Source: Cyanobacteria bacterium FACHB-471 (GTDB lineage Bacteria > Cyanobacteriota > Cyanobacteriia > Elainellales > Elainellaceae). From it: a DNA stretch of 64,000 nt. The translations under genes were made by a program, and so were the position numbers. The DNA is taken from the NCBI GenBank assembly GCA_014695345.1, contig JACJOC010000111.1, positions 124,001 through 188,000 of the forward strand, written 5' to 3'. Under the pieces are notes generated by a model. The model worked only from the letters and a program-made list of their open reading frames with translations. It made no database searches and had not been told where the DNA came from. Positions 55,999-58,897 of this stretch are shown piece after piece (position 1 is the stretch's first letter; each line of letters starts with the position of its first letter).

Positions 55999-56811
55999 CT
56001 AATACTCATACGGATTCTCTGGTTCCTCAATTTCCTCTAGCTCACTTGCCTGAATGGTGAGGTGACGTTGCCCATCAAGGGTTTCAGTGATCATCGAACC
56101 TTTAACCCGTAGCCAAGTGTCCTGCGGGTAAGCAGAACGGTTGCCTTCAAGCTTCACAGGCAACCCAACCGGATAGGTATCGGCTGCACAGCAGGTGATT
56201 ACAAATCGGGAAATCATCAAATAGTTGTTGGGCAGTTCGGGTGGATGAATCACAAAGCCTTCGACATTGGCTTGCTGTCCGGTGTAGGCATCAGGTTCGG
56301 GATACACATCCAGGGTGCGAATCCAGTCAATTACCGATCGCTCCTCCGGACTGGTGGTCGAGCGAAAAGACTGAGGCTGCGATCGCGTCATCGCCAGCGT
56401 ATCCGTCACACCTCGATTAAGCGCCACTTCACTGGCGAACGGCTGAGGCGTAAACTGTAGCCCAAACACTGCCACCGCTAACAGCATCGCACTGCTCCAT
56501 CCCCTTGGAAACAGCGAAAAGTGCTGCATCGTGGGCAAGCTTCTAAAATGATTGCGGGCACTGCGCTGAGTCGTAATTTGTAGAAGCTGCACCGCCTTGA
56601 GCAAGCTCAGCGCCAGCAAGCAAATCCCAGCGGTGTTTGCCAGCCACATGTAGTTCGGGTGCAGCAAAACGTTGAGCTTACCAGTCAGCCAGTATTTCAG
56701 CAGCAAAACGCCCCAAGTGGCAATCGCCAAAATATCCAGGACAACCAGCCAGAAAGCACTGCCAAGCCGTCGAGGTTGGGGTTGAGCGATCGGTTTAGGT
56801 CTAACAGTCAT
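55999..56811 (-). CDS. TIGR03943-type permease partner protein (YcgQ-like)
   Basis: The protein has two N-terminal membrane helices, another near residue 100, and a beta-rich C-terminal domain with EGFVIHPPELPNNYLMISRF, VITCCAADTYPVGLPV and MITETLDGQRHLTI. This is the pattern of the YcgQ/TIGR03943 family, always encoded with a DUF318 permease. The CCAAD segment may contact metal. It starts 100 bp after the permease gene on the same strand. The pair is thought to move an unknown ligand, perhaps metal-related. Confidence 0.82.
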   Translation of the reverse strand: MTVRPKPIAQPQPRRLGSAFWLVVLDILAIATWGVLLLKYWLTGKLNVLLHPNYMWLANTAGICLLALSLLKAVQLLQITTQRSARNHFRSLPTMQHFSLFPRGWSSAMLLAVAVFGLQFTPQPFASEVALNRGVTDTLAMTRSQPQSFRSTTSPEERSVIDWIRTLDVYPEPDAYTGQQANVEGFVIHPPELPNNYLMISRFVITCCAADTYPVGLPVKLEGNRSAYPQDTWLRVKGSMITETLDGQRHLTIQASELEEIEEPENPYEY

Positions 56812-56910
56812 GCAGTTTCCAAAACACGCAGTGTACAGGTTTAGGGGCTAGAGACTAGAGATTAGAGAGGTTAGAGGTTTTGTGAGCTTCATCCTTCATC
56901 CCTCTCTTTC

Positions 56911-57951
56911 CTAGCTGACATACAAATTGATGATCAGGGTTAGCAAAAATGTCAACTGTGCCGCCAGCGCAAATAGATAGACGATCGCTCTCCCCCGGAA
57001 CACCGATAGCAATAGCCCAATGTTTTTCACATCAATCATGGGACCAAAGACTAGAAATGCTAGCAAAGAGCCACTGGTAAACGTCGAAGCAAATGATAGA
57101 GCAAAAAAGGAATCAACCGTTGAGCAAATTGACACGACCCATGCCAACAGCATCATCGCCAAAATCGATGTAATTGGCCCTTGCCCCAAGCTGAGAATTA
57201 CTTCACGAGGAATCGCTACCTGAACGATCGCAGCGATCGCACTTCCCAAGATCAACACGCCGCCCAGTTCGCGCAATTCCTGCACCACGTTGTCTAGCAT
57301 GAGCTGGAGGCGATCGCTCAATGGCTTTGTCGTCACTGAGCTAGCTGCCAAAGCCGCCTGCGCCCCGACTGCTTCCATTCGCATTGGCTGTCCTGAGGAG
57401 TTAAGTAGGAATGTGCCAGATTGCAATAGCTCCGAGGCAGGTTCCGCAGATTGGGCAAATTTAGACCGACGCGATCGCCTTCCTTGGGGTGCAGGCATTG
57501 ACTGAGCCACCGCTGGCTGCAAAAGCGGTCGCAAATCTGCCTGCGAACTAAACACCCAGCCGATGATCGTCGCAATCAGCAGCGAAAACCCAATTCTCAA
57601 AAACACAATTTCCGGTTGACCACGAAACGCCGTCCAGGTTGCCCAAAACACAATCGGATTCACCGTCGGCGCTGCCAGCAAAAAACCAATCGCCACCGAA
57701 GCAGGCGCACCCTGTACAATGAGTCGCCGCGCCACGGGCACGTTACCGCACTCGCACACTGGAAATAGAAACCCAACCATGCTACCTGCCAGCGCTCCCA
57801 GCAGTGGATTTTTTGGCATCATCGCCACCAGCTTGCGCTCATCCACAAACAGCAGCAACGCGCTGGAAAACACCACGCCTATCAATAGAAACGGGATTGC
57901 TTCAACCAGCAGGCTAAAAAACAGGGTCAGGGCATTATTCAACTGAGTCAT
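56911..57951 (-). CDS. DUF318/ArsP-like permease (YcgR/YraQ family)
   Basis: About eight membrane helices in two halves carry the family signatures GFLFPVCECGNVPVARRL and AAPTVNPIVFWATW in the first half and AWVVSICSTVDSFFALSFA in the second. A hydrophilic linker of about 60 residues joins them. It belongs to the UPF0718 permease family, some of whose members export organoarsenicals, but the substrate here is unknown. It heads the two-gene operon with the YcgQ-like partner. Confidence 0.88.
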   Translation of the reverse strand: MTQLNNALTLFFSLLVEAIPFLLIGVVFSSALLLFVDERKLVAMMPKNPLLGALAGSMVGFLFPVCECGNVPVARRLIVQGAPASVAIGFLLAAPTVNPIVFWATWTAFRGQPEIVFLRIGFSLLIATIIGWVFSSQADLRPLLQPAVAQSMPAPQGRRSRRSKFAQSAEPASELLQSGTFLLNSSGQPMRMEAVGAQAALAASSVTTKPLSDRLQLMLDNVVQELRELGGVLILGSAIAAIVQVAIPREVILSLGQGPITSILAMMLLAWVVSICSTVDSFFALSFASTFTSGSLLAFLVFGPMIDVKNIGLLLSVFRGRAIVYLFALAAQLTFLLTLIINLYVS

Positions 57952-58227
57952 TCAGTCCGCTCACTCCTCGGTGTCTTCACCCGTCAGCGATCCCCGTTAA
58001 GGGTACAGACAGCCATTGTACCGGATCGGTATAGACACCTTCGCCTTTTCCCTCTCGCAGTCAGGATAACCTGGACAAAATCACCTCGATTTGCAGCTTC
58101 AATTTTGAATTACATATCAAAAAATTCCGTAGCTCAATCGCTTGACGACAAGCCATTCCTCCAGATATGCTCTCACGTTAAGGTTGTCTTTTTTACCCAA
58201 AAGCAGCCCTGCTACACCCAAAGATCT

Positions 58228-58469
58228 AGCGCCGCTCAGAGCTGTTACCAGCAGCAATGAGCGACTGACCCCCAAACTGAGGTACCAGTCTGGCGGCTAA
58301 TGGTGAATTTTAACACTCCCTTAGCCACCCCGACTTGTCATGTCAAAAAAGCCGTTGCTAACCCTTTAGGACATGAAAGTGAAAGTATCACTTTTAGTTC
58401 TCTCACTGGTTTTGTACAACGTGTGAATGAGTGCGGGGTGGCTAGGTTTTTGGGGTTTCCTCAAAAACC
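58228..58469 (+). promoter_or_regulatory. Candidate structured leader RNA before the small conserved protein gene
   Basis: The sequence folds into nested stems. A perfect 11-bp stem TAGCCACCCCG (58322-58332) with CGGGGTGGCTA (58434-58444) closes three hairpins: TCATGTC/GACATGA, AAAGTG/CACTTT, and TCAC/GTGA with inner GTT/AAC. Next follows GGTTTTTG/CAAAAACC (58445-58469). GAGT/ACTC then brackets the ribosome site of the 82-codon gene at 58487. An upstream domain (about 58228-58301) has further stems (CGCTCA/TGAGCG, GACTG/CAGTC). The motifs of glutamine, TPP, cobalamin, RNase P, SRP and tmRNA RNAs are absent. No conservation or transcript data are available, so function is inferred. Confidence 0.5.
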
Positions 58470-58486
58470 AAAAGGAGTCACAACTC

Positions 58487-58735
58487 ATGTCTCAATGTTT
58501 CTTGGAATCTCCCAACGCACCCACCGTTGAGAGAGAAGTTTCTGCACTTCACAACCCTGACCGCGATCGCCTGCGAGTTCTCATCATCGGCTCTCGTGAT
58601 GGTGTGATTGAAACGATTCACGACTTATATCATCGCGGTTTTGCTGAAGTGAGTGCCTGGAGTCCCCTTTTACCTGCACCGAGTTCTGGTGAAGTGATGA
58701 GTATCTTGACTGGCGATCGCAGACGAGGAGGCTAG
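58487..58735 (+). CDS. Small conserved cyanobacterial protein (82 aa)
   Basis: The protein has a disordered head and the conserved core LRVLIIGSRDGVIETIHDLY followed by HRGFAEVSAWSPLLPAP and SGEVMSILT. I remember this family from many cyanobacteria, usually misannotated as peptide-binding. It has no catalytic motif. The ATG at 58487 has AAAGGAGT about 10 nt upstream and begins MSQCFLESP. A start 20 codons earlier is unlikely because it would lie in the structured leader. Function unknown; the strongly structured leader suggests post-transcriptional control. Confidence 0.75.
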   Translation: MSQCFLESPNAPTVEREVSALHNPDRDRLRVLIIGSRDGVIETIHDLYHRGFAEVSAWSPLLPAPSSGEVMSILTGDRRRGG

Positions 58736-58897
58736 GAGAAGAGGGGCGATCGTTTGAGGAGGAGCGATCGCCCTCTAAACAAATCTCTAGAATGCTCGGT
58801 TATTATCTCCGTTTATTTTGAGAATCAAGGCAACATATTTGAATTGAATTTTTGAGAGGAATATTTTGTGAGTCTGTAAGATCATCACATCTACGCA

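Follow-up and report, generated by a model that had tools for sequence, protein, structure and literature searches.

What kind of element is the densely paired region that precedes the gene of an 82-residue protein in Cyanobacteria bacterium FACHB-471, and what might it do for that gene? The window analysed here is a stretch of 64,000 nucleotides from contig JACJOC010000111.1, and the nearest named relatives of its DNA are the MAGs Leptolyngbyaceae cyanobacterium SM1_4_3 and RM1_406_9. It contains a leader RNA of ~300 nt at 58178-58486, located 5' of this small uncharacterised protein gene (58487-58735); the features described below lie on the plus strand unless stated otherwise. The initial annotation had proposed a structured leader at 58228-58486, with more exact pairs than chance would produce. 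Shuffle tests bear out the excess of pairing, the fold stability reaching z = -5.2 for residues 58228-58495 and z = -6.5 for 58318-58450 (0/200 shuffles as stable in each case). The interval itself was too short, as the leader starts at ~58178 and the 5' strand of its long-range closing helix, PL (58217-58230), lies mostly outside it. Upstream, a promoter-like sequence, TTGACG-18-TATGCT, covers 58142-58171. One match of this kind is also expected by chance in the promoter scan of the window, and the evidence for the promoter is therefore its conservation: TTGAC-N-TANNNT occurs ~74 nt upstream of the PL 5' strand in 57 of 99 homologues, as compared with ~1 expected by shuffling. Transcription is accordingly expected to start near 58178. 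A start downstream of the structure had been named as the result that would speak against a leader, and the conserved promoter instead precedes every part of the structure. A hairpin P1 (GGTTGTC...GCAGCC, 58182-58208), close to the 5' end of the leader, was identified by eye, as were compensatory changes among the copies of the same genome (GGTTGTC/GACAACC, GACGGCC, GCAGCC). The Shine-Dalgarno (SD) sequence AGGAG is assigned to 58473-58477 from its sequence and position, and a terminator search of the same strand returned no intrinsic terminator in the leader. Two adjacent genes on the minus strand (55999-57951), encoding an ArsP_1 permease and a DUF1980 protein, are located upstream and diverge from the leader. 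Right behind the stop codon, GCGATCGC palindromes (HIP1-type) are clustered, at 58738-58780 in the window and likewise in many copies.

The core of the leader is enclosed by PL, in which the 5' strand CCCAAAGATCTAGC (58217-58230) pairs with the 3' strand GCTAGGTTTTTGGG (58441-58454). In an alignment of 100 sequences, 12 of its 13 pairs exhibit changes on both sides, and pairs 8-249, 12-247 and 13-246 are significant against a phylogenetic null. Judged by this covariation, PL is the true closing helix, with the junction of P2, P3, P4 and a short P5 inside. P2 (58231-58265) is a hairpin with a 6-7 nt loop of the YUNNNAN type; all 14 of its pairs covary, five of them significantly, and it is directly followed on its 3' side by a near-invariant U(A/G)ACC (58266-58270). 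P3 (58272-58293) is a hairpin with a hypervariable loop of 6-7 nt (50 different sequences among 58 loops of 7 nt), and covaries in 6/7 pairs, three of which are significant. The P4 hairpin (GGCTAA..TTAGCC, 58295-58326) carries a conserved apical AUUUUAACA, and its stem is paired in 89% of the cells, with two-sided changes in 5/9 pairs and no pair individually significant. Lastly, P5 (58327-58439) associates ACCCC (58327-58331) with GGGGT (58435-58439) and displays two-sided changes in 5/5 pairs, pair 165-239 being significant. The P5 loop accommodates an optional insert of ~80 nt (58350-58432, approximate boundaries), which is absent from the paralogues L056, L057, L061, L067 and L068. Two elements of the initial annotation have to be read differently in this light. 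Of its 11-bp closing stem (~58324-58334 with 58434-58444), the inner ACCCC/GGGGT segment covaries, but no outer pair is significant; its three enclosed hairpins (~58350-58432) belong to the optional insert that several paralogues lack. An extended P5 was rejected for the role of conserved closing stem, since none of its pairs is significant under the phylogenetic null, and at the columns where the two helices compete, PL is paired in 95% of cases vs 79% for the extended stem.

This structure is recovered in several ways. When 24 leaders are aligned by MAFFT without structural information, 25/48 pairs of the hand-drawn structure show two-sided changes, amounting to 132 cells vs 17-30 in slid controls. 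In the 100-sequence alignment, which was fitted to the model and is therefore biased toward the model structure, two-sided changes affect 42/48 pairs, with 711 such cells vs 79-110 in slid controls. The helices of the model also emerge from a covariation score computed without any structure. The phylogenetic null, obtained by reshuffling substitutions along the tree with a simplified R-scape-like script, not R-scape itself, leaves 13 of 10,731 column pairs significant at E 0.05. Twelve are model pairs (in PL, P2, P3 and P5), and the thirteenth is a non-canonical contact between the first and last bases of the P2 loop. The alignment of homologous upstream regions with a covariation analysis, suggested at the outset as the way to check the proposal, was thus passed decisively, with both alignments and under the null. 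With its secondary structure supported by covariation, the leader is, on comparative grounds, a structured cis-regulatory RNA. The P2 and P3 loops (58231-58293, and homologues), with their 6-7 nt, YUNNNRN pattern and hypervariable apices, resemble U-turn, anticodon-like loops. Kissing between them was considered and rejected, as they show no excess complementarity (2.76 vs 2.70, sd 0.07).

The 3' strand of PL is also part of a second helix. The P6 hairpin (58445-58469), GGTTTTTGGGG-TTT-CCTCAAAAACC, competes with PL and includes the anti-SD stretch TTTCCT. The order of elements is PL3' (TTTTTGGGN), the anti-SD stretch (TTTCCT or TTCCTT), and the SD 15-25 nt further on, and in many homologues the stem is perfect over ten bases, for instance GGGATTCCTT/AAGGAATCCC. 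The base that follows GGG and its P6 partner occur in the four Watson-Crick forms (T-A 41, A-T 16, G-C 10, C-G 9), and the anti-SD/SD score within a leader is 16.4 vs 13.3 (sd 0.3) when the segments are swapped between leaders, ~10 sd higher. This covariation and within-leader complementarity indicate that P6 is a genuine helix and that GGG is contested between it and PL. PL and P6 are therefore mutually exclusive helices that have the GGG strand in common and both covary, at the ribosome site, which supports the placement of an expression platform there, as first annotated. The SD is inside P6 in at least 37 homologues (37/86 scored), while in 44/86, the subgroup of the window included, P6 is a hairpin that precedes or excludes the SD. 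Folds constrained to PL are 0.5-2.6 kcal/mol above the MFE in the five leaders tested, that of the window among them. A shortened P6 can coexist with PL, which would weaken the switch. As extended P5 has no significant covariation, P6 is the sole basis of the window's alternative state; and as P6 in the window's subgroup forms a hairpin immediately 5' of the SD, the sequence there would allow either sign of regulation.

The comparative data show the conserved promoter, the multihelix core, the near-invariant junction nucleotides, the linkage of leader and small protein and the competition between PL and P6, with P6 or its anti-SD strand located at the SD. If we assume that the two helices alternate in the cell, the RNA would switch between a PL state and a P6 state, and ribosome access would follow the state of the core. 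A trans-acting signal, be it a small molecule, a protein or an RNA, may bind to the conserved junction and set this state. In the homologues with the SD in P6, P6 becomes shorter when PL forms or is extended, and more translation is then expected. Regulation would most likely bear on translation, through the PL/P6 exchange, and the leader probably belongs to a novel family of riboswitch-like RNAs that control in cis the translation of the small protein.

Leader copies were sought with a covariance model within the cyanobacterial class. Matches are reported in 95/388 sampled cyanobacterial genomes belonging to 47/159 genera, and in 29/36 genomes of the family; weak matches on the antisense strand were attributed to self-complementarity and dropped. 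In the FACHB-471 genome, protein and DNA searches return ~15 close copies of the promoter-leader-ORF unit, whose flanks are unrelated, as well as divergent copies, and the covariance model identifies 23 leader copies, 22 of which are then followed by the small protein, the exception being a truncated leader-only copy (L042/L179). The location of the leader between promoter and start codon is conserved across species: the start codon of the small protein domain lies 24-120 nt downstream in 95/100 aligned leaders, and two of the five others reach the end of the available sequence. The largest number in one genome is found in G055, with 61 leader matches, the weakest of which may include chance ones. 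Many of the leaders sampled in G055 precede other multicopy small-gene families, some cases being ambiguous and one having the usual domain. A GC-rich hairpin often takes the place of P6 in this genome (L234, L275-L299, L330-L349). In genome G139, one leader copy (L315) is directly 5' of a DNA methyltransferase-like gene. A different ORF lies behind leader L208. Since unrelated small-gene families also follow it in one lineage, the leader acts as a module and not solely as an autoregulatory site of the small protein. This modular use before different genes would suit a strict metabolite riboswitch, in which a small molecule bound at the conserved junction decides between PL and P6, as would the near-invariant unpaired nucleotides, the variable peripheral loops and the competing helices at the SD. 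However, the controlled genes encode orphan small proteins, neither enzymes nor transporters, and therefore suggest no ligand; we regard this narrower form as possible, if somewhat doubtful.

The small protein belongs to an unnamed multicopy family, with 21 matches in its own genome at E<=0.001. It had been annotated as conserved, and this holds: the ORF is real, with relatives in many genomes, and the median dN/dS of 0.17 over 66 pairs of copies from its own genome indicates that it is under purifying selection. Searches with 67 family members returned no convincing Pfam, NCBIfam, PADLOC or PHROG match, and a profile search of the PDB with the family gave chance-level matches only. Its AlphaFold model is a beta-alpha-beta arrangement, for which the best Foldseek E is 0.2 and the VIA-align Z is below 5; with such weak scores, the fold is not assigned. 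A type III toxin-antitoxin system was rejected, as the aligned leaders exhibit, by inspection, a single multihelix core and no tandem repeats, and the protein has no PADLOC match. The small size and predicted beta-alpha-beta fold would agree with autogenous control, whereby the protein binds to its own leader and represses its own translation in the manner of ribosomal-protein leaders, and the linkage between leader and protein is tight across many genera (95/100, and 22/23 in its own genome). Yet the comparison of the model recognised no RNA-binding fold, the protein also has many homologues that lack a leader, and the leaders in front of the unrelated families of G055 and the methyltransferase-like gene of G139 reveal that the leader is separable from the gene family, which counts against pure autoregulation. 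This explanation is rather unlikely.

The leaderless homologues differ in their neighbourhood. An HTH relative is present at 42/61 leaderless loci vs 0/100 leader-bearing loci, in two sets that also differ in taxa and available flank length, although L092 and L094 come from close relatives of the FACHB-471 genome. Pfam HTH_3 is above cut-off for the four neighbour genes tested beside leaderless homologues. Adjoining XRE/HTH genes are observed at L092, L094, L099, L102 and L135, and at L093, L095, L103, L104, L108, L117, L129 and L130, and are either co-directional (~160 residues, DUF7662 plus HTH_3) or divergent (~80 residues) with inverted-repeat, operator-like sequences. A broader scheme can be put forward tentatively, and might prove true or false with almost equal ease. 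A riboswitch or a factor-sensing RNA of a novel class, amplified to dozens of copies per genome, would replace the neighbouring XRE factor that controls an undescribed small-protein family, and further multicopy small-gene families would have adopted this RNA as well.

Could the RNA itself be the functional product, as a trans-acting RNA or the RNA of an RNP, with the small protein as its partner and the specificity residing in the hypervariable P2 and P3 loops? The YUNNNRN-type loops with variable apices in an otherwise conserved RNA, and the many paralogues per genome, could be read in this way. Nevertheless, the loops have no mutual complementarity and may simply be unconstrained, and the conserved pairing of SD and anti-SD points to control in cis, making this reading improbable. 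An RNA thermometer, with heat melting P6 to free the ribosome site, is very unlikely. The SD is paired within P6 in at least 37 homologues, though not in the window's subgroup, but an SD hairpin would suffice for a thermometer, and the conserved 160-nt core, the near-invariant junction bases and the long-range helix would be superfluous. A mobile cassette whose RNA fold serves the spread of the repeats would account for the ~15 similar units with unrelated flanks, but is very unlikely given the purifying selection on the ORF and the lack of a transposase partner, of a constant neighbour and, by eye, of terminal repeats or target duplications.

A riboswitch-like regulator of translation therefore remains the preferred reading of the leader, and it does not correspond to any described family that we could find. 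No Rfam 15 family reaches its gathering threshold with the window leader or with 20 divergent homologue loci, in line with the absence of known cyanobacterial RNA motifs noted initially; a distant tRNA is the sole Rfam match of the window, and a permissive scan of 58000-58800 gives chance matches only. Literature searches found no description of the leader RNA, and a plasmid search returned no match. A large RNA family proven by covariation that occurs in roughly one in four of the cyanobacterial genomes sampled, yet is missing from Rfam, amounts to a sizeable annotation gap. The leader also opens the way to a multicopy protein family that has not been described, and if an RNA leader has taken over from a DNA-binding regulator within a single gene family, this would be of evolutionary interest.

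The closest counterpart by position is the Downstream-peptide/glutamine-II RNA (RF01704), a cyanobacterial 5' UTR element that precedes ORFs of 17-100 residues of no known family (PMC2864571). The present leader is likewise a cyanobacterial 5' UTR element before short family-less ORFs, but a search with the RF01704 model returned no match, and the leader RNA is far larger, with a long-range closing helix. With translational riboswitches, in which the platform sequesters the SD, it shares a conserved core in which the junction bases hardly vary, and a pair of helices that compete at the ribosome site; unlike the known ones, it is tied to orphan small proteins, reaches up to 61 matches per genome and has no Rfam family. 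As in the autoregulatory leaders of ribosomal proteins, a structured leader is mostly linked to one protein family, but this protein is non-ribosomal and multicopy, and the leader is also found before other genes. Lastly, the leaderless homologues of the small protein resemble XRE/HTH-controlled small genes in adjoining XRE/HTH genes, whereas copies with the leader lack this neighbour and possess the RNA instead.
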